33,618 bases of DNA from positions 1 through 33,618 of the forward strand of contig JAUVIV010000018.1 of assembly GCA_030592575.1 (NCBI GenBank). Direction: 5' to 3'. Within the stretch, counting starts at the first letter, position 1, and each line of letters begins with the position of its first letter. Origin of the DNA: a bacterium. GTDB lineage: Bacteria; Hydrothermota; UBA3073; JACQXS01. Made by a program: the position numbers and the translations under genes. A model generated the notes under the pieces. The model saw nothing but the letters and a program-made list of their open reading frames with translations, was not told the DNA's origin and did no database searches. Positions 5,753-17,473 of this stretch are shown here, one piece after another.

Positions 5753-6431
5753 TTACTTGAGGATAACACCGGTTTTCATATACCATAAGAATAAATCTAA
5801 TTCTGCAAGATTAAGATTTACTCTCTTAGCAAAGCTTTGTAATTTTTCTTCTGTTGAGTAGTAAAATCCTTTTGAAAGTTGTGCAGGTATTTCTTGAATC
5901 AAGTTATAATCTTTCAATGCTCTCAAAATATGTCTGTCTAAAATTGCAAGATTCTTATATCCTACATTCCTCAAAAAATGACTGCTCTCTTTTAAACCAA
6001 GTCCCCTTACTTCCAAAATCAACCATTTTCGAGCATTGAACTCTATATCAAAAGAAAGGATTTTTACTTTTAGCTTATCAATTAGTTTTCTGGCTCCAAC
6101 AATATATTCTGCTCTTTTATTATAGAATCTATAGCCTTTTTTGTTTTAGTATTGCAGAAAGCTCATTCAATGAGAATTGAATAAATGCATCGTCTATACA
6201 TAAGTCTTCCCAGATATCCAAGACTTTTTTCGCTCCGGAATTTGCAGTTAGGAGACAAAAGCACAGTTCATTAAACCATGCTTTTTTGTCTCCTTCGTGA
6301 CTTTGTTCGAAATCTTTAATGGCTTTTTTAACAGTATTAAAAAACTTTTGATTTCTTTGCAAGACATAAATCTCGTGTTCTAATTTGTCTATATTCACTT
6401 CTTTCTGACAGTTATTTTTAATAGTTAGCAT
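5753..6431 (-). pseudogene. N-glycosylase/DNA lyase (archaeal-type 8-oxoguanine glycosylase, Ogg2-like), split by a frameshift
   Basis: N-part MLTIKNNCQKEVNIDKLE...KAWFNELCFCLLTANSGAKK...LSAILKQK; C-part GYRFYNKRAEYIVGARKLIDKL...NARKWLILEVRGLGLKESSHFLRNVGYKNLAILDRHILRAL; the halves join if one A of the A6 run (T6 on +, 6137-6142) is skipped. Confidence 0.82.
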
Positions 6432-6939
6432 CCATACGAAATTCCGCAACATCAAACCAGAATCCAGATTTAGAAAGAGAATCCTTTTGTGCTTGGAGTA
6501 AGTCATAATGATATTCTTCTTCCTCTCGTATCTTTGTAAATATCTCTCTCGCAAATGGATCTTCTGTTTGTTCCACAATCTTATTATAGTAATCAATGGA
6601 TTTCCTCTCGTTACCCATAGCCGTTCTTAACGCATCTAATTCTGTCAGATTTATATCTGCTTTTTTTTGTAGTTCTCCCTCAAATATTGGAACTTTTCCT
6701 ATTCTGGGAGAATACTGTTGAGCTATTTTCTGCCAATCACCTGTGCCAGTTATTGCATCAAACATTTTCTGAAAAGTGTTCCTATGCTCAATTTCATCTT
6801 TTGCCAAAGTCTCAAACATTTTTTTGCCAAGTTCGTTATCTGTTTTCCGAGCTGCGTCCTCATAAAAAGCATGCCCATCTTTTTCCATTTGTATCGCCAT
6901 TTTCATAGCATCAAGAACAATGGAACTGATTTTATCCAT
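6418..6939 (-). CDS. Ferritin-like / rubrerythrin-family diiron protein (no rubredoxin domain)
   Basis: 173 aa; AIQMEKDGHAFYEDAARKTDNELGKKMFETLAKDEIEHRNTF ... EIFTKIREEEEYHYDLL. Confidence 0.88.
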   Translation of the reverse strand: MDKISSIVLDAMKMAIQMEKDGHAFYEDAARKTDNELGKKMFETLAKDEIEHRNTFQKMFDAITGTGDWQKIAQQYSPRIGKVPIFEGELQKKADINLTELDALRTAMGNERKSIDYYNKIVEQTEDPFAREIFTKIREEEEYHYDLLQAQKDSLSKSGFWFDVAEFRMDANY

Positions 6940-6984: not shown

Positions 6985-7518
6985 CTAATAATTCTCACAC
7001 GCCAATTCGTAATAACTTTGAGGATGAATACAAGCAGGACATACCTTTGGTGCTTCAGTACCTTCATAGATATAGCCACAATTACGGCATTTCCATTTCA
7101 CGGAACTATCTTGTTTGAAAATTTTTCCACTTTCTATATTTGATAGAAGTTTTCTATATCGTTTCTCGTGTTCTTTTTCTACTTTGGAAATTTCTTCAAA
7201 TATCTGTGCAATCTCCGTAAATCCTTCTTCTTTGGCAATTTTAGCAAATTCCGGATACATTGAAGTCCACTCATAATTCTCGCCTTCAGCCGCTGCTTTA
7301 AGATTTGCTTTTGTATCGCCAATACCATTCAAAAACTTAAATTCCTTTTCAGCGTGTTCTTTCTCGTTATCTGCTGATTCCTGAAATATAGCGGCTATTT
7401 GCTGATATCCTTCTTTTTTTGCCTTGCTGGCAAAATAGGTGTACTTATTTCTCGCTTGAGATTCTCCTGCAAAAGCTGCAAGAAGATTCTTCTCGGTTTT
7501 ACTCCCTTTTAATTCCAT
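6985..7518 (-). CDS. rbr: Rubrerythrin
   Basis: 177 aa; [27 protein letters not shown]..., C-terminal rubredoxin-like [20 protein letters not shown]. Confidence 0.96.
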
Positions 7519-7533
7519 AATTTCTTCCTCCTT

Positions 7534-7914
7534 TTAATTTTTTGACTTCCATAAACCATGAATAGTACAATACTCTCTTGCCTCTATTCTTTCTGCTTTT
7601 ATTTCAAATATAGCTTCCGGGGCATCTCCGGATTTCAGAGATTTTCTACATACCTTACCATCTGCAATTATTTCTATCCATTCTATATAGTGCTTTTCTT
7701 CCATCGGATGTGTAATTGAGCCAACTTTTACTTTTATTCCATTTTCTATTTTCTCTATCACTGGAATATGCTTTTCTTGTCCAATATCTTCTGTTTTCTC
7801 TTTAAGCAATTCCATCGGCTGTCCACAACATACCAATTCTCCAACTCCTGAATGCAATACTTCTACGATATTTCCACAAATATTGCATTTATACACTTGC
7901 AAATTTTTAGTCAC
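7534..7914 (-). CDS. dfx: Desulfoferrodoxin / superoxide reductase (2Fe-SOR type)
   Basis: 126 aa; N-terminal [52 protein letters not shown]. Confidence 0.95.
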
Positions 7915-7952: not shown

Positions 7953-7991
7953 TATCCAACGAAATATCTTAGCGTTTCTATCGGACGCTAC
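7953..7991. repeat. Intergenic repeat copy 1 (TATCCAACGAAATATC ... ATCGGACGCTAC)
   Basis: shares ATCGGACGCTAC and TATCC(A/G)A(C/T)GAAATATC with 9682-9745; supplies the TAG stop of the permease gene. Confidence 0.6.
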
Positions 7992-9232
7992 TTTTTTATC
8001 AAATATCCTTCGCTTTTAATTATTTCTATTACCTTCTCTCGTGAAATAACTATTTCACTTTTAACTTTAACAAGTTTCTTTTTAATATCTATATCCGTTC
8101 CCGTAACTCCATTCAATGCTCGTAATGCTTTTTCAATTGTTCTCGCACAATGCTGGCAAGTCATACCAGGAACTTCTAAGATCAATTCCTCCATTGCAAT
8201 CTTATTCTTGTTTAGTTTGACATATCCTCTAAGGCTGTACAGGATAAGCAAAAGGAGCATCCATCCGCAGACAAGTTTAATTGACATAGGAAGCATTTTT
8301 CCTTGCATTACAACTTTGCTTATTTCTATATCACCCCATAAAACATTCAGCAAAAGACCGAGCAAAATACTTGCTATTCCTATTGATAAAAGATAGATAA
8401 CCAATGACTTTTTACCAAGATATTTACCAATTACCGTAATAGTTACAGCATTTGTAGCAGGTCCAGCGAAAAGGAAGATAAATCCTCCTCCTGCGGAAAG
8501 TCCTTTAAGCATCAAGGCAACAGCAATAGGAATGGAGCCGGTTGCACATACATATATTGGAATAGCCACGACGAGAACTACAAGCATTGACAAGAGTCCT
8601 GAACCTAAATATCTTTCTATAAATCCTTCCGGTATAAAGTAAGTGATTATTCCACCAACCAGTAATCCTAATATAATCCATCTACCTGCATCCTCAAGAA
8701 GTTCAATAAACCCATAAGAGAATATTGCCTTAATTTTATCTATAAAACTATGAGTATGTGGAATAGTTTTATTACAAATATTACAACTTTTTTCTACTAC
8801 TTCTTTCTTTTCATAATTTTCTTTTGTAAAGATATTTGCCAATAATCCTGAAAATATGCCCGTTATAAATGAAGCAATAACTCTATACGCAGCAAATAGT
8901 GGACCCAATAAAGAATAGGTTACAAAAATTGAATCCACCCCGGAGGTAGGAGTAGATATAAGAAAAGACAAACAAGCTCCCTTACTTGCTCCTTGTTTCC
9001 TTAGGGAAGTTACTACCGGAATAACACCACAAGAGCAAAGAGGAAGCGGTACTCCGAAAAGTGCTGATTTAATAACAGACAAGAGTCCTTTTCCACCGAG
9101 ATGACGAGTTACTTTTTCTTTTGGGAAAAACACATATAAGACACCGGCAAAGAAAAAACCCATTAAGAGCCAGGGAGCCATCTCTATTAAAAGGTTAAAT
9201 GACTCTACAAGAATGGAAATTACAACACTCAT
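7988..9232 (-). CDS. ArsP/DUF318-type permease with C-terminal HMA domain (SO_0444-like Cu/Zn efflux family)
   Basis: 414 aa; GVPLPLCSCGVIPVVTSLRKQGASKGACLSFLISTPTSGVDSI, FAGPATNAVTITVIGKYLG, C-terminal VPGMTCQHCARTIEKALRALNGV. Confidence 0.9.
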   Translation of the reverse strand: MSVVISILVESFNLLIEMAPWLLMGFFFAGVLYVFFPKEKVTRHLGGKGLLSVIKSALFGVPLPLCSCGVIPVVTSLRKQGASKGACLSFLISTPTSGVDSIFVTYSLLGPLFAAYRVIASFITGIFSGLLANIFTKENYEKKEVVEKSCNICNKTIPHTHSFIDKIKAIFSYGFIELLEDAGRWIILGLLVGGIITYFIPEGFIERYLGSGLLSMLVVLVVAIPIYVCATGSIPIAVALMLKGLSAGGGFIFLFAGPATNAVTITVIGKYLGKKSLVIYLLSIGIASILLGLLLNVLWGDIEISKVVMQGKMLPMSIKLVCGWMLLLLILYSLRGYVKLNKNKIAMEELILEVPGMTCQHCARTIEKALRALNGVTGTDIDIKKKLVKVKSEIVISREKVIEIIKSEGYLIKK

Positions 9233-9244
9233 TATTTTTATTAA

Positions 9245-9631
9245 TTACTTTGGTTTCTTTTTGTTTTTGTAATCTTCAATTGCTTTATGAAGAGCATCAG
9301 CTGCGAGATTAGAACAATGCATCTTCTGAGGAGGCAAGCCATCAAGTTCATCTGCCACATTATTGCGAGTTATTTTCATCGCTTCGTCAATATTCATCCC
9401 TTTTGCCATCTCGGTTACCATACTACTCGTCGCAATAGCTGAACCGCAACCAAAGGTTTTAAATTTTATATCAGTAATAATATCGTCTTTTACCTTAATA
9501 TATATCTCCATCAAATCTCCGCAGACCGGATTTCCTATCTTACCATATCCGTCAGAATTTTCTATAATACCTACATTCTTCGGATTCATAAAATGCTTCA
9601 TTACTTTTTCACTATATCCTATCTGTGCCAT
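9245..9631 (-). CDS. nifU: NifU/IscU-type Fe-S cluster scaffold
   Basis: 128 aa; GNPVCGDLMEIYIKV, FKTFGCGSAIATSSMVTEMAKG, KMHCSNLAADALHKAI; all three scaffold Cys and the Asp present. Confidence 0.95.
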   Translation of the reverse strand: MAQIGYSEKVMKHFMNPKNVGIIENSDGYGKIGNPVCGDLMEIYIKVKDDIITDIKFKTFGCGSAIATSSMVTEMAKGMNIDEAMKITRNNVADELDGLPPQKMHCSNLAADALHKAIEDYKNKKKPK

Positions 9632-9861: not shown

Positions 9862-9952
9862 TCGTAAGACCAACGCCATAGGATTAACACCACGATTTAT
9901 CGTGGTGAATAGAACTTACGATACCCCACCTATAAAACCGTTTCAACGGTTT
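9862..9952. repeat. REP-like palindrome cluster
   Basis: TCGTAAG(9862-9868)/CTTACGA(9915-9921) enclosing CACCACGATTTATCGTGGTG(9888-9907), then AAACCGTTTCAACGGTTT(9935-9952). Confidence 0.75.
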
Positions 9953-10688
9953 ACAAAATCGTTCTCTTTACAAGGACTTGCTTTATAATTTCAATAACCC
10001 CATATAAATCACTATCATGTATAAAAACCAATTTTCTAATCTCTGCGTCTTTAATATTCCAATAATACTTTCCATTTTTTTGATAAATATCCTTGGAGAT
10101 TTTTTCAAGAAATTTGTCTATAAGTTTAGTTAAATTTGAGGGATGTTCACTGAGCCAAACAGGTACACGGACTACTAAAAAATCAGCACCTTTGTTATCG
10201 GCTTTCTTAATCTGTCTTTTAATCCATTTTCCCAACACTTCTGGTATCTTTGGAGTGTACTCATTCCGATACGCGGACATTATTTCACTACTAACATCCT
10301 TCACCTCCACAAAAATTTTATATTCGCTTTTTTCGACCAAAAGGTCACAATCTTTATTTGTATTAGCATAAATTTTATCAGACCTTACATCAAAATCAAT
10401 AAAATTATAACCCATTTTCTCTGTAAGTATGTATAAAGCGTGAAATTCTGCTAACTGGTTGTGATAATTTCTCTTAATGTCATTTTCGTTCTCGTTATTA
10501 CCTCTTCTTGATGCTAAATTCTGTATTTTCTTCTTTAATTTAGCATTACCTCTAAAATTATCAATTGCATATATAACATACTGTAAAGCTTTGTAATTTT
10601 TCTTTTCAACATCTAACTTTAAGCATCCCCCTAATTTCATCTTATTACTTTTAATATATTGAAGCAAAATATCCAAGGTATTTTTCAT
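9951..10688 (-). CDS. Hypothetical protein, possible PD-(D/E)XK nuclease-like fold
   Basis: 245 aa; DCDLLVEKSEYKIFVEVKD resembles D-Xn-ExK; no family recognised. Confidence 0.6.
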   Translation of the reverse strand: MKNTLDILLQYIKSNKMKLGGCLKLDVEKKNYKALQYVIYAIDNFRGNAKLKKKIQNLASRRGNNENENDIKRNYHNQLAEFHALYILTEKMGYNFIDFDVRSDKIYANTNKDCDLLVEKSEYKIFVEVKDVSSEIMSAYRNEYTPKIPEVLGKWIKRQIKKADNKGADFLVVRVPVWLSEHPSNLTKLIDKFLEKISKDIYQKNGKYYWNIKDAEIRKLVFIHDSDLYGVIEIIKQVLVKRTIL

Positions 10689-10840: not shown

Positions 10841-11992
10841 TCAAAGTGGTGAGAGTCTTCTTAATCTTTTAATCGTTTCTTTAACAGCTTTCGTAATTAT
10901 AGGAACTTCTTCAATCTTATTTGCTCGCCCCAGAGTTAAAACCATTGACCCATGAGCTTCTTCGTGTTTCAATCCTATTGCCAATAGAGTATGCGAAGAC
11001 TCTAATGTCCTGGAGGAACAGGCTGAGCCCGTAGATATTTGTATATTGTACATATCCATATTCAATAGAATGCTCTCTCCTTCTATGCGACTGAACCTGA
11101 AACTTGCATGATTGGGAAGTCTTTGAGTAGGATGTCCAGTGAGATATGAGTCCTCTATCTTCAATATCTCAACGATAAGCTTATCCCTTATTTCCTTAAG
11201 CCGATTACCTTCTATTCCCATTTCATTCTTTGCTATTCTTGCTGCTTCTCCCATTCCGGCAATGGCAAATAAGTTTTCTGTCCCGGATCTAAGCCCCTGT
11301 TCCTGCCCACCTCCGGAAAGGATTGGTTGAAGTTTTACTCCCGATTTTATATACAATACACCGGCACCTTGTGGTCCATACATATCGTTAGATGACAAAG
11401 TTAATAAATCTATCCCATCATTTTGTACATCTATAGGTATAAATCCTGCAGCGATGGTGGCATCTACATGTAAATATAATCCCTTTTTATGAACTGTCTC
11501 GCTTATCTCTTTAATAGGTTCTATCGTTCCTATTTCATTATTCGCATACATTATTGAAGTTACCGTAGTATTTTTTGTTAAACTCTCATCAAGTTTCTCC
11601 ATATTGATAATGCCGATTGAATCAACGGGTATAATGGTAAATTTGAACCCATTTTTCTGGAGCTCTTTCATCGGATTAAGTACCGAGATATGTTCTATAT
11701 TGCTTGCCACAACCTCTTTCCCTTTTGCTATATTCCTCAATGCAGTTCCTTTGATAGCCAGATTATTAGATTCGGTTGCTCCACTGGTAAAAACAATACA
11801 AGTCTCTTTCTCTGCATTTATAAGTTCTGCAACTTTTTTTCTGGCATCCTCAATGGCACTTTTCGCTCTTAATCCTACTGAATACAAAGATGAAGGGTTT
11901 CCAAAATCTTTATCAAAATACCGTTCAGCAAATCTCAATACTCTCTTATCAACTGGCATTGCTGAAGTATGGTCTAAATATATCCTTTTCAT
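10841..11992 (-). CDS. IscS/NifS-like cysteine desulfurase homolog lacking the PLP lysine
   Basis: MKRIYLDHTSAMPVDKRVLRFAERYF; HVDATIAAGFIPIDVQ; LTLSSNDMYGPQGAGVLYIK (usual SAHKxYGPKG); catalytic-loop STGSACSSRTLESSH present; start moved to ATG 11992. Confidence 0.92.
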   Translation of the reverse strand: MKRIYLDHTSAMPVDKRVLRFAERYFDKDFGNPSSLYSVGLRAKSAIEDARKKVAELINAEKETCIVFTSGATESNNLAIKGTALRNIAKGKEVVASNIEHISVLNPMKELQKNGFKFTIIPVDSIGIINMEKLDESLTKNTTVTSIMYANNEIGTIEPIKEISETVHKKGLYLHVDATIAAGFIPIDVQNDGIDLLTLSSNDMYGPQGAGVLYIKSGVKLQPILSGGGQEQGLRSGTENLFAIAGMGEAARIAKNEMGIEGNRLKEIRDKLIVEILKIEDSYLTGHPTQRLPNHASFRFSRIEGESILLNMDMYNIQISTGSACSSRTLESSHTLLAIGLKHEEAHGSMVLTLGRANKIEEVPIITKAVKETIKRLRRLSPL

Positions 11993-12020
11993 AAATTCTG
12001 CTTTAAAAGTTGAGAATGAT

Positions 12021-12056
12021 GTCGGAGTCAATCGCTAAATCATTCAGTGTTCCGAC
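12021..12056. repeat. Inverted repeat GTCGGA-N24-TCCGAC
   Basis: gtcggagtcaatcgctaaatcattcagtgttccgac. Confidence 0.55.
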
Positions 12057-12092
12057 TTTACAACTTATAATCGTTAGCTTTTCGTGATAATT

Positions 12093-12144
12093 TGGAGTGC
12101 AACGACTCTGTCGTTGCATGCAAAAACAGAGTTTTTGCACTCCA
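12093..12144. repeat. Three-way-junction palindromic element with complementary hairpin loops
   Basis: TGGAGT [GCAACGA-CTCTG-TCGTTGC] AT [GCAAAAA-CAGAG-TTTTTGC] ACTCCA. Confidence 0.85.
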
Positions 12145-12148
12145 TAAA

Positions 12149-12168
12149 ATACATTCTATAGAATGTAT
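12149..12168. repeat. Perfect 20-bp palindrome ATACATTCTATAGAATGTAT
   Basis: self-complementary, 14 bp past the glutaredoxin stop. Confidence 0.8.
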
Positions 12169-12181
12169 CATTAGTTAATAA

Positions 12182-12421
12182 TTATTGCGTTTGAGCCAAT
12201 TCTTTCTCTATTGCTGCTTTATTAAATCCTACGATAATCTTTCCGTTTATTTCAGTTTGTGGAACTCCCATTTGTCCGGATTTCTCAATCATTTTTTCGG
12301 CAGCTTCACGATCCGTAGAAACATTTATATCGTCAAATTCAACACCTTTTTCTTTCAGAAAATCTTTTACCATAGTACAATAGGGACAAGTATTTGTTGA
12401 ATACACTTTGATTTTTGCCAT
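12182..12421 (-). CDS. Glutaredoxin / NrdH-like redoxin
   Basis: 79 aa; KVYSTNTCPYCTMVKDFLKEKGVEFDDINV, MGVPQTEINGKIIVGFN. Confidence 0.92.
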   Translation of the reverse strand: MAKIKVYSTNTCPYCTMVKDFLKEKGVEFDDINVSTDREAAEKMIEKSGQMGVPQTEINGKIIVGFNKAAIEKELAQTQ

Positions 12422-12467: not shown

Positions 12468-12689
12468 TTACACAGCAACAACTTCTTTAATCTCTGGTAT
12501 TTCTTCTTTCATTGCTTTCTCTATACCCATTTTCAGTGTCATCTGGCTCATCGGACATCCTCCACAAGCACCTGTTAATTTTACTTTTACTATACCATCA
12601 GAAGTAACTTCTACTAACTCAACACCTCCACCATCTGCTTGTAAAGCTGGCCTAACTTTATTTAAGACTGCCTCTACTCGTTCTCTCAT
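12468..12689 (-). CDS. NifU C-terminal domain (Nfu) Fe-S carrier
   Basis: 73 aa; [20 protein letters not shown]...[23 protein letters not shown]. Confidence 0.95.
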
Positions 12690-13384
12690 TATTCCTCCTT
12701 TTCAAACTTATCTTTACCTACCCCACAGATTGGACAAGTCCAATCATCTGGTAATTTATCAAAAGATGTTCCTGCTTCTACCCCAGAATCAGAATCGCCT
12801 TTTTCCGGGTCGTACACATATCCACAAACTATGCATTTATACTTTTCCATTCCACTTACCTCCTTCTTACTTTCATGTATATTGCTGATATATGTTGGAG
12901 CTGTTTTTGGAGCCGTGCCACGTTTTACTTCATGATAATAAGCATACGTCATTGGCTTTCCATCTCCGGTAATTTCAGCATCAATTATCTTTCCAACAAA
13001 AATAGTATGCGTTCCCATATCCATACTATTAACAACTTCTGCTTCCAGGTAGCCAATAGAATTTTCCATAATTATCGGAGCACCGGTCATGCCAACTTTG
13101 TGATTTACATCCTTGAGCTTATCAATATTCCTGCCGGATTTGAAACCAAAATGCCCTATGAATTTCACAGATGTTTCTTTTGACAAGATTGAAACAGTAA
13201 AAACTTTGCTTTCCTGAATAAATTCGTGGGTTAAATTCTGCTTGTTTATGCTCACTGCTATTGTTGGAGGCTCTGCTGTTATCTGAAAAACCGTATTTGC
13301 AATTTGTCCGTTAAGCCTATCTCCTTTTCTTGAACTTATTACATATAGACCATAGCTTATCTTATGAAAAGTTTTAGGATTCAC
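12689..13384 (-). CDS. Flavin reductase-rubredoxin fusion (high-molecular-weight rubredoxin, Hrb-like)
   Basis: 231 aa; FMN-binding flavin-reductase domain plus C-terminal [16 protein letters not shown]...[18 protein letters not shown]. Confidence 0.93.
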
Positions 13385-14564
13385 AACCCGCCTCCTTATG
13401 TTTTTTTACAATACTATCTGCCAGCTTGTCAAGAGATTTAAAATCTTCATCCTTAGGAACTCCTTTGCATAATACAGTATCCAATATTTCAAGTTTCAGG
13501 CTGGAAATAATTCCTGCAAGTTGCTCAATCGCTCTGCTGCCCCAACCATAAGAACCAATAACAGACGCAAACTTTAATTTAGGTCTCAATGCATTTACGA
13601 GATAGGTAGCATAAATTACAACCGGATGTGCCCCGGTTAATACTGTGGATGTACCTATGACAACAGTAGCTGCATCTACCAATGATATTGCCAATTTTCC
13701 AATATCAGCGTTAGTTAGATTAAATTGTTTCACAGTTACATCTCTTTCAATCAAAGCTCCTACAAAATAATCCACCATCTTCTTTGTACTACCATGCATA
13801 GACACATAAGGCACTACAACTATATTTTTGAGTTTATCAAAAACCCAATGTTTGTACGCATTGAGGATAAACTCCGGATTGTTATGCATAGGACCATGAC
13901 TGGGTGCAATAATATCTACCTTCAAGTCTTTTATCTTTTCTAAATTCTTCTGAATTATTGTCCTAAATGGCATCATAATTTCTGCATAATATCTTTTGGC
14001 TGCCTCATAAACCATTGCCTCATCTCTTACATATAAATCAGATGACGCCAGATGAGAACCGAATAAATCGCAGGAGAATAGTATCTTATCTTCTTTTAGA
14101 TAAGTCAACATCGTCTCAGGCCAATGAACCCAAGGAGCATAAATAAATTCAAGTGTCTTATTTCCTAATGAGAGCGTTTCTCTATCCTTAACGGTTACGA
14201 ACTTGTCTTCAGGAATAGCGAGTAAATCCATAAGCATATTTTTGCATTTGGGTGTTGCCACAACTCTTGCTTCCGGATATATCTTCAATATCTGAGGCAA
14301 ACCTCCCGAATGGTCTTGTTCTGCATGATTTGCAATAACATAATCTACGTTTTTAATTCCGAGTCGGGTTAAATTATTTATCAGCACATCCACCATAGGC
14401 AAATCAACAGTATCTATCAATGCCGTCTTCTCGCTACCTTTAATCAAATAAGAGTTGTAGCTTGTTCCATCCGGAAGTGGAACAAGTTCGTCAAATAATC
14501 GTCTATTCCAATCTATTGCACCAACATAACAAACATCCGGTTTCAATTCTTTTGATTTTACCAT
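13374..14564 (-). CDS. fprA: A-type flavodiiron protein (FprA)
   Basis: 396 aa; [51 protein letters not shown], flavodoxin-like [17 protein letters not shown]; overlaps hrb by 11 bp. Confidence 0.94.
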
Positions 14565-14577
14565 TTTTAGTCTCCCT

Positions 14578-14880
14578 CTATTTCAATTTTTTCTCTACTG
14601 CTTCAATTTTGCCAGCCATAGTAAGTTTTTTGTCCATCCTATCATCAATTGTTATATGAGTCGCTACTCTCTTAGCACCTAATTTAAAAGGAACCTGATG
14701 CATCTCCTTAATCGCTTCAAGAATTCTATCCAAATCACCTTCAATCACTGTAACCATAGGTGTCAATTTGTGCTTCAAATCTTTGTATTTATCCAAGATA
14801 CCCTCACATCCAGCCACATAATGACTAATACTTGGATTCTCAGTTCCTATTGGTACAATAGATACTCCCACAACTGCCAT
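14578..14880 (-). CDS. MTH1187/DUF77 family (thiamine-binding-like) protein
   Basis: MAVVGVSIVPIGTENPSISHYVAGCEGIL...GAKRVATHITIDDRMDK; start moved to ATG 14880. Confidence 0.85.
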   Translation of the reverse strand: MAVVGVSIVPIGTENPSISHYVAGCEGILDKYKDLKHKLTPMVTVIEGDLDRILEAIKEMHQVPFKLGAKRVATHITIDDRMDKKLTMAGKIEAVEKKLK

Positions 14881-14904
14881 AATATCCTCCTTCAATTCGT
14901 CAAA

Positions 14905-16206
14905 TCAAGCCAACATCGTTTTTATATCCTCTTCAGGCTCGCCAATAAGTCTTATATCGTAGTTATCTTGAAGCACTTTCAGAATGTCATCGTTTACCCA
15001 TGCAGGAAGTATTGGTCCAAGATATATCTTTTTTATACCCAGCGAAAGAAGACTCCAGAGGATAATTACTGCTTTCTGCTCCATCCAGCTTAAATTCAAT
15101 GTAAGTGGTAGTTCGTTTACTCCAACCCCAAAGAGTCCGGCAAGCGCAGATGCGATTTCAATTGCATCTATTGCATCGTTACATTGCCCCAAATCCAATA
15201 ATCTTGGAATACCTTCTATATCTCCAAGCTCTAAATCATTGAATCTGAATTTCCCACAAGCAAGAGTAAGAATTATGGTATTTTTGGGCAAAAGCTTGAC
15301 GAATTCTCTGTAATAATCTCCTCTTCCAACAGGTGAATCACATCCGCCCACGAGGAAGAAGTGTTTTATTTTGCCATCTTCTACCAATTTTTTAATCTTG
15401 TCCGCCAAAGATAGAATTACTGATTTAGAAAACCCGGTCGTTAGCACAATATCCCCTGATTCTTCTTCAAGCTCCGGCAATGCTTTTGCTTTTTCTATAA
15501 CAGGAGTAAAGTCGTATTCATCTATGTGCTTGACATCTGGCAATCTCACAGGACCTGTTGTAAACATTCTGTCCTTATATTCTTCTTTTGGTATAAGAGC
15601 ACAATTTGATGTTGCAAGAATTGCCATAGGATATTTTGCAAATATTTTTTTCTGGTCAAACCATGCCTTCCCAAGATTACCCACAAGATGCTTGTATTTT
15701 TTCAACCCGGGATAACCATGCGCAGGCAACATCTCAGAATGAGTATAAACATTTACACCCGTTCCTTCTGTTTGCTTGAGCAATTCCTCAAGTGCTTTCA
15801 ATCCATGCCCCGTAACAAGAATACCATACCCTTTTACCGTACCGGTTCGCACTTTAATAGGCTCAGGCTCACCGTATGCTTTAATATGAGCTTCCTTTAA
15901 AAGCTTCATTGTTTTTATGTTCATCTTTCCTGCTTCAAGAGCTAACTGGACAAGACTTCCTGCATCAAAGTTCACATTTGTAAATGTAGTATAAAACGCT
16001 TTCTCTAAAAACGCATCTATTTCAGTGTCGGTAGATCCAAGTTCCCTCGCATGATATAGATACGCACTCATTCCCTTTATTGCATATATTAAGTTATCTT
16101 GCAATCGTGCAACTGTCGGTTCTTTCCCGCACACTCCCTTAACAGTACATCCCATTCCCTTTACAGTTTGGGAACATTGATAACAAAACATTTCCAGTTT
16201 TTCCAT
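14905..16206 (-). CDS. hcp: Hybrid cluster protein / hydroxylamine reductase (short, class III-like)
   Basis: 433 aa; [94 protein letters not shown]. Confidence 0.95.
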
Positions 16207-16237: not shown

Positions 16238-16945
16238 CTATTTTATATTCCCCTTAATCCCCAAAGTAATTTTCTCAAAAGGTATGTTTTTTTCAGAATC
16301 CTCAATAGCATTTTTTACTATGTTCACAAGACCAAAGCAACAAGGAACCTCCATATTTGCCACCAGAACACTCTTGGGAGTATTCAGCTTGAAAATATCA
16401 GTAAGTTTTGACTGATAGTATTCTGCATCATCAAGCTTCGGGCAACAAATTATCAAAATTCTATTTCTCAATAAATCTTGATGAAAATTAGCGTATGCAA
16501 ACGGGACACAGTCTGCCGCAATAAGTAAATCCGCATCATCCAAAAAGGATGCATTAGAAGGAACCAACTTAAGCTGAATAGGCCAAGATGTGAGCTCAGA
16601 GGGAATTTCAACACTCTTCACTGATTCTTTGCCCTTATTTTTAAAAGATTGAACCATCGTTCCCGAACATCCGCATTGCAATGGCTCTTTATGCTTCACG
16701 TTTTCTATATGCCTTTTCGCAGACTCTTCATCAAATTGCTCAACTTCTTTCTCTTCTACAGTAATTGCATCTTGCGGACACTTACCGAGACAGGCACCCA
16801 ATCCATCACAGTATTTTTCACTTACCAGCTTTGCCTTTCCATCAATAATTTGAATAGCTCCCTCAGCACAGGCAAGTACACACAAACCGCAACCGTCACA
16901 TTTTTCTTCATCAATATGAACGATATTTCTTTTTGTTTTAGCCAT
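16238..16945 (-). CDS. 4Fe-4S ferredoxin-domain iron-sulfur protein
   Basis: 235 aa; CDGCGLCVLACAEGAI...CDGLGACLGKCPQDAI; conserved C-terminal region with CVPFAYANFHQDLLRNRILIICCPKLDD. Confidence 0.88.
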   Translation of the reverse strand: MAKTKRNIVHIDEEKCDGCGLCVLACAEGAIQIIDGKAKLVSEKYCDGLGACLGKCPQDAITVEEKEVEQFDEESAKRHIENVKHKEPLQCGCSGTMVQSFKNKGKESVKSVEIPSELTSWPIQLKLVPSNASFLDDADLLIAADCVPFAYANFHQDLLRNRILIICCPKLDDAEYYQSKLTDIFKLNTPKSVLVANMEVPCCFGLVNIVKNAIEDSEKNIPFEKITLGIKGNIK

Positions 16946-16963: not shown

Positions 16964-17389
16964 TTATTCTTTGGCACTTTGCTCTTTCTTCAAGCATTCG
17001 GAACATACTCCATAAAGATAAGCTTGCGCCTCTTCAACCCTACAACCACTGACCCATCCCTTTTTAATTATTGGGCAATCAACATCCATATCCAGTATTT
17101 TCCCACATTTCCGGCAGAGAAAATGGTGATGAAGCTTTGGGTTAGGATCAAAACACGCCTTACCTCTTTTCATTATAGAAAGCTCCTGTATCTCCCCAAG
17201 CTCTTTCAACAACCTCAACGTAGAATAAACAGTTGCCATTGACATAGTAGGATATTTTCTTTTAATAGCCTTGTGAATATCCTCCACCGTTGGATGAGCA
17301 ACGCTTTTTCCCAGAAACTCCACTATCGCTATCCTTTGAGGAGTTAACGTTATTCCCTTAACCTTTAATCGCTCAATTATTTCCATCAT
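16964..17389 (-). CDS. Fur/PerR family transcriptional regulator
   Basis: MMEIIERLKVKGITLTPQRIAIVEFLGKSVAHPTVEDIHKAI...TVYSTLRLLKELGEI...HHHFLCRKCGKI; start moved to 17389 (SD GGGAGG). Confidence 0.93.
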   Translation of the reverse strand: MMEIIERLKVKGITLTPQRIAIVEFLGKSVAHPTVEDIHKAIKRKYPTMSMATVYSTLRLLKELGEIQELSIMKRGKACFDPNPKLHHHFLCRKCGKILDMDVDCPIIKKGWVSGCRVEEAQAYLYGVCSECLKKEQSAKE

Positions 17390-17444
17390 CTTTTGCCTAC
17401 CTCCCTGACAATACCATCGCCGCAATTTCCATTCATCTAAACTC

Positions 17445-17473
17445 AATGTATAAATAGAAATACAACTTGTCAA
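17445..17473 (-). promoter_or_regulatory. Sigma70-type promoter of the Fur/PerR-headed cluster
   Basis: minus strand TTGACA(17473-17468)-N17-TACATT(17450-17445). Confidence 0.65.

Follow-up and report, generated by a model that had tools for sequence, protein, structure and literature searches.

A lysine-less (Asp-type) NifS/IscS-like protein encoded with a NifU scaffold among oxygen-defence genes in a bacterial genome

Gene content of the locus

The window, i.e., the whole stretch of 33,618 nucleotides that was analysed, is contig C103 of a host assembly (G000) of 2.49 Mb that consists of 157 contigs and is 93.8% complete. A series of genes on its minus strand surrounds a gene for an IscS-like protein that lacks the PLP-binding lysine:

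6418..6939, minus strand, ferritin-like/rubrerythrin-like protein (by resemblance)
6985..7518, minus strand, rubrerythrin
7534..7914, minus strand, desulfoferrodoxin / superoxide reductase (SOR)
7988..9232, minus strand, SO_0444-type Cu/Zn efflux permease with an HMA domain
9245..9631, minus strand, NifU/IscU scaffold, above the TIGR03419 cut-off (profile search and residues)
10841..11992, minus strand, Lys-less (Asp-type) NifS/IscS-like protein of 383 aa (ORF reading, phmmer against the PDB, profiles and model)
12182..12421, minus strand, glutaredoxin-like protein, TIGR02196 YruB family, above cut-off (profile search)
12468..12689, minus strand, Nfu-type protein, PF01106 NifU C-terminal domain (profile search)
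12689..13384, minus strand, flavin reductase-rubredoxin fusion, rubredoxin NF045768 above cut-off (profile search)
13374..14564, minus strand, flavodiiron protein, a family match below the flavorubredoxin equivalog cut-off
14578..14895, minus strand, MTH1187-family small protein (TIGR00106)
14905..16206, minus strand, hybrid cluster protein (HCP) / hydroxylamine reductase (TIGR01703)
16238..16945, minus strand, ferredoxin-like 4Fe-4S protein
16964..17473, minus strand, Fur-family regulator, putatively PerR-like by context only

The order HCP, flavodiiron protein, flavin reductase-rubredoxin, nfu, grx, iscS*, nifU and SOR is common to several bacteria and to the archaea G178, G198 and G206, with some genes missing or moved in places. 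The second lineage of the host phylum also has a homologue of the 6418-6939 gene no more than 1.5 kb from its Asp-type gene. In 63 of the 68 Asp-type loci whose flanks were long enough, nifU is the next gene downstream, at a median distance of 24 bp; in the window, the two genes are separated by a 1.2 kb insert that is absent from most relatives. The NifU at 9245-9631 has three cysteines and an aspartate, as does the partner in A. fulgidus, and all of the cluster residues (equivalents of C37, D39, C63, K103, H105 and C106), which are kept in 64/64 of the partner NifUs.

The insert carries a 245-aa ORF (9951-10688, minus strand) that has no Pfam or NCBIfam match, matches the PADLOC candidate HEC-02B weakly (E 4e-4) and contains a VEVK stretch that recalls PD-(D/E)xK nucleases. 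Between the glutaredoxin and IscS-like genes (11995-12181) lies a dispersed palindromic repeat of about 57 bases; this 187-base stretch has 62 matches in the same genome, many on both strands, and the repeat is a candidate REP- or MITE-like element.

Residues and fold of the Asp-type protein

The reading frame at 10841-11992 starts with ATG, matches these coordinates exactly and contains no stops. For the Lys, His, Gln and loop Cys positions, we take their roles and E. coli numbering to be established knowledge of IscS. The His-Lys pair with which a desulfurase forms the internal aldimine with PLP is replaced by Asn202 and Asp203 (motif LSSND-MYGPQG), and the mobile-loop Cys325 is kept (STGSACSSRT). 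In addition, the PLP-contacting Gln, Gln183 of E. coli IscS, is Ile180, a loss that was overlooked by the first-pass annotation. Asp for Lys, Asn for His, the lost Gln183 and the kept loop Cys together are the residue pattern of A. fulgidus IscS, which was also the best phmmer match among the PDB sequences (4eb5/4eb7/4hvk, E 3e-129, 54% identity) and was followed by 4r5f, its D199K mutant. The alignment bore out the substitutions and the intact Cys that had been described from the sequence, and it contained the A. fulgidus-like stretches TSAxPVD, GLKHEEAHG and the C-terminal SPL. Since the A. fulgidus motif SSND-IYGPKG is in register with that of the window, with no gap around it, and the window motif has no Lys, a lysine shifted by one or two residues was ruled out.

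The protein scored below both curated NifS/IscS cut-offs (TIGR03402, 431.6 vs 530.75 bits; TIGR02006, 375.7 vs 643.2 bits). Its AlphaFold model (pLDDT 87.9, with the loop 325-330 poorly resolved) has the aminotransferase class V fold, and the best Foldseek matches were 4eb5, the closest, 4eb7 and 4hvk (TM 0.93-0.94).

Conservation and phylogeny of the Asp-type clade

At least 70 Asp-type rows were found among the matches listed in the genome searches, which are a sample and not a census. Asn precedes the Asp in 69/70 of these, Gln183 is lost in all 70 (Ala in 65) and the loop Cys is present in 70/70, whereas the 83 Lys-type rows have His-Lys in 83/83, Cys in 83/83 and Gln in 82/83. After reduction at 80% redundancy, Ser103, His104, Gln230 and the Cys were invariant among the 46 Asp representatives; here, the Asp was fixed by the choice of rows and the other four were not. 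The PLP phosphate and ring sites are retained throughout the clade (Thr76, His104, Ser203) or mostly so (Asp180, Thr243). Four members, L041, L053, L166 and L168, have Glu, Ser or Gln for the Asp, which therefore is not itself strictly required.

In a tree from which the trait columns were left out, the Asp-type proteins formed a single clade (99/96) that was present in all of the bootstrap trees, and a broader quick tree supported it at 96. The A. fulgidus IscS (G278 of the tree, which we take to be that organism) falls inside this clade together with the window protein. The Asp-type family is an old and well-preserved one that is known mainly from archaea.

In a further seven rows from the host phylum, the Lys is replaced by Thr, Ser or Gln (L020, L022, L024, L025, L026, L037 and L038). 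All seven have Ala for Gln183 and share Ser103 and Gln230 with the Asp clade; they cluster with the Lys-types of the phylum (96/90), apart from the Asp clade. A common origin of both Lys-less clades was only just ruled out (p-AU 0.043). Because this value is marginal and the grouping was picked after inspection of the tree, separate origins are favoured but unsettled. The three Thr rows adjoin rubrerythrin-like genes, while the Ser and Gln rows do not.

Distribution and transfer between archaea and bacteria

Within the host phylum, the Asp-type gene was found in 29 of 147 genomes, which belong to two separate lineages. In the archaeal phylum of G156, about 50 of 295 genomes had a match at 49% identity or more, with the residues read in part of them, and all of the 20 loci that were read in the Bathyarchaeota phylum had Asp. 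The Asp-type was rare in the samples from Actinomycetota (two among the 8 listed of 346 genomes) and Bacillota (one among the 20 listed of 348 genomes, plus the seed G162). For the other phyla, the counts were confined to loci with the residue read because the cut-off of E 1e-108 also admits Lys-types at 45-49% identity. Archaeal orthologues are up to 81% identical to the window protein (G254), they are intermixed in the tree with the bacteria of the window's group, and the operon is common to both. These observations support the transfer of the gene between archaea and bacteria that the earlier annotation had put forward.

Other desulfurases and scaffolds

The first-pass annotation had stated that no other desulfurase was visible. 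This holds within the window but not for the genome, in which the search that it recommended for Lys-containing proteins recovered two: an IscS/NifS (G000:C58:7077-8162, LSGHKFYGPKG, SSGSAC) beside a gene that resembles nadA, and a SufS/Csd-like protein (G000:C85:8039-9145, SGHKGLLGPQG) near genes that resemble yedE and yedF. A NifU homologue was absent from the 12.5 kb contig that carries the Lys-type IscS, while the genome as a whole has three NifU_N proteins, and most of the relatives also have other NifU copies. Each of the 29 genomes of the phylum with an Asp-type gene, G000 included, also codes for an IscS/NifS- or SufS-like protein that contains the Lys. This rules out a desulfurase-free organism, and the suggested desulfurase-independent Fe-S assembly is therefore unsupported at the level of the organism. 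In one of these genomes, G025, the second IscS carries Leu at the Lys position, which leaves the SufS-like protein as the only one with the lysine. Apart from the Asp-types, Leu was seen at the PLP lysine in L291 (G025:C236, AHLIHGPKG) and Gln in L243 (G1045:C3, an Actinomycetota genome, SSHQFYGPKG), both beside NifU.

The SufB/D core (PF01458) was absent from G000 and from 19 of the 20 Asp-type genomes that were searched, the sole match being in G011, and all 14 controls were positive. SUF as a backup scaffold was hence ruled out for these genomes. The genomes of the phylum without this core include G000, G004, G007, G009, G014 and G018. In G004 and G007 (assemblies 91-92% complete), the single NifU_N protein that was found adjoins the Asp-type protein, and the Lys-less protein may therefore be the gene partner of a housekeeping scaffold in these two genomes.

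Oxygen-defence context

In the host phylum, 27/27 Asp-type loci have an oxygen-defence homologue at a distance of 1.5 kb or less, vs 0/14 Lys-type loci (Fisher p 3e-11, a value that overstates the contrast because the genomes are related and not independent). Many other archaeal members have only the iscS*-nifU pair, with no oxygen-defence homologues around the gene. A limited literature search, which is weak evidence of absence, returned no report of the breadth outside archaea or of the oxygen-defence context, and both apparently are new.

Proposed function and alternatives

A. fulgidus IscS is reported to have no desulfurase activity owing to the Lys-to-Asp replacement and to contribute a cysteine as a ligand of the cluster on IscU (PMC7585200), in line with the first-pass annotation. 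In the crystal of its complex with IscU(D35A), the cluster is held by three IscU cysteines and Cys321 of IscS (PMC9769115). By homology, we consider that the 10841-11992 protein, which belongs to the Lys-less A. fulgidus clade, has probably lost the ability to desulfurate cysteine and serves as a partner of NifU. Its homodimer would dock the NifU that is encoded with it, as a dedicated partner, and Cys325 would be the fourth ligand of a [2Fe-2S] cluster that is held by three NifU cysteines. The cluster would then be passed to clients, perhaps via Nfu and Grx. The sulfur presumably would be supplied as sulfide or by one of the cell's Lys-type desulfurases. In the host phylum, the most likely task of the pair would be to build or rebuild clusters or iron sites upon exposure of a strict anaerobe to oxygen. 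The substitutions, their conservation across the clade, the partner gene with intact ligands and the oxygen-defence context all support the proposal, while the insert before nifU in the window and the other NifU copies in the genome speak against it. Moreover, the ligation by Cys might be a trapped state because the cluster-bound A. fulgidus complex was obtained with a D35A scaffold.

Another role for a protein that binds NifU but delivers no sulfur would be that of a decoy or regulator, which shelters the scaffold, with any cluster or iron bound to it, while oxygen is present or blocks its loading by the Lys-type enzyme until the stress is over. The invariable oxygen-defence context in the phylum (27/27), the scaffold that is always intact and the Lys-type desulfurase that every such genome encodes at another locus would fit such a role. 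A pure block at times of stress, however, would not account for the clade as a whole because many archaeal members have no oxygen-defence neighbours, and the loop Cys that is kept in every Asp-type row would not be needed by a decoy. We therefore regard this role as unlikely.

It is less likely still that the protein remains a PLP/PMP enzyme with a non-covalently bound cofactor, Asp203 as the base and a changed substrate or reaction. The pocket does have a coherent and fixed signature, i.e., Ser103, Asn202 and Gln230 together with Asp203 in 69-70 of 70 rows. Because the phosphate-site residues are retained and PLP is shown in A. fulgidus 4EB5 in a published figure, some cofactor chemistry may persist. 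The substrate pocket, however, is unevenly kept because the Asn155 and Arg355 positions are relaxed: Asn was found in 45/70 rows, and Arg in 54/70, with the closely related proteins having His or Pro, although the latter position also varies among the Lys-types (not Arg in 10/83). The Glu, Gln or Ser for Asp in four clade members and the desulfurase inactivity that is reported for A. fulgidus IscS (PMC7585200) also speak against an enzyme.

A persulfide relay, in which sulfane sulfur donated by the Lys-type IscS or by polysulfide would be picked up by Cys325 and handed on to NifU, appears improbable. It would account for the universal loop Cys and the co-occurring Lys-type desulfurases, and the product of the adjacent glutaredoxin gene could reduce a persulfide, but no sequence feature for the docking of a sulfur donor was found. 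Finally, despite the loss of a catalytic residue, a decaying gene, a frameshift or an assembly or sequencing error is scarcely credible because the same substitution occurs in 70 rows of one clade that spans archaea and bacteria, the dN/dS is 0.07-0.16 in ten orthologue pairs and the reading frame is free of stops.

Beyond the NifU partnership of this one protein, a wider reading can be offered tentatively, as one that may well not hold in full. The Asp-type pair would be a widespread cross-domain Fe-S module that uses sulfide and in which NifU normally works with a catalytically dead IscS; in some SUF-less bacteria (G004 and G007) it may serve the sole NifU-type scaffold; in the host phylum it would belong to the oxygen-defence set; and the second Lys-less lineage would apparently have arisen separately. 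Since the Asp-clade proteins resemble IscS/NifS enough to be called desulfurases (4eb5 itself was deposited as a cysteine desulfurase), this activity is probably over-counted when sulfur metabolism is reconstructed for many anaerobes. If clusters are indeed built without cysteine desulfuration, these proteins would offer a direct way to study how sulfide is used by anaerobes for Fe-S clusters, a question that was reportedly raised by work on SMS and is said to be unsettled for IscS/IscU-type systems. The strict link with oxygen defence in one phylum suggests a role in rebuilding clusters after exposure to oxygen.

Comparison with known systems

The closest known system is A. fulgidus IscS2 (4eb5, 4eb7, 4hvk; mutant 4r5f), with which the window protein shares the Asp, the Asn, the loss of Gln183 and the loop Cys at 54% identity. 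The IscU gene is directly downstream in A. fulgidus, and the window pair, although 1.2 kb apart, is adjacent in relatives. Unlike the A. fulgidus gene, that of the window belongs to a bacterium, is surrounded by oxygen-defence genes as well as nfu and grx, and occurs in a genome that also has Lys-type IscS and SufS-like proteins. M. acetivorans IscS1 (MA0808), which also lacks the PLP lysine according to PMC7585200, is alike by that description in being paired with IscU in a genome with further desulfurases; it has, however, no assigned function, and its neighbours are described there as genes of unknown function. The MIS system (MisS/MisU) has the same two-gene iscS-iscU layout and is likewise found in anaerobes and archaea, but MisS is described as a cysteine desulfurase and is set apart by this description from the Asp clade, which has no catalytic lysine. 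The NifS/IscS desulfurases (E. coli IscS, 1p3w/3lvm; TIGR03402 and TIGR02006) share the fold (TM 0.94), the loop Cys and an IscU-type partner with the window protein, which differs from them in lacking the Schiff-base Lys and in scoring under both curated cut-offs.
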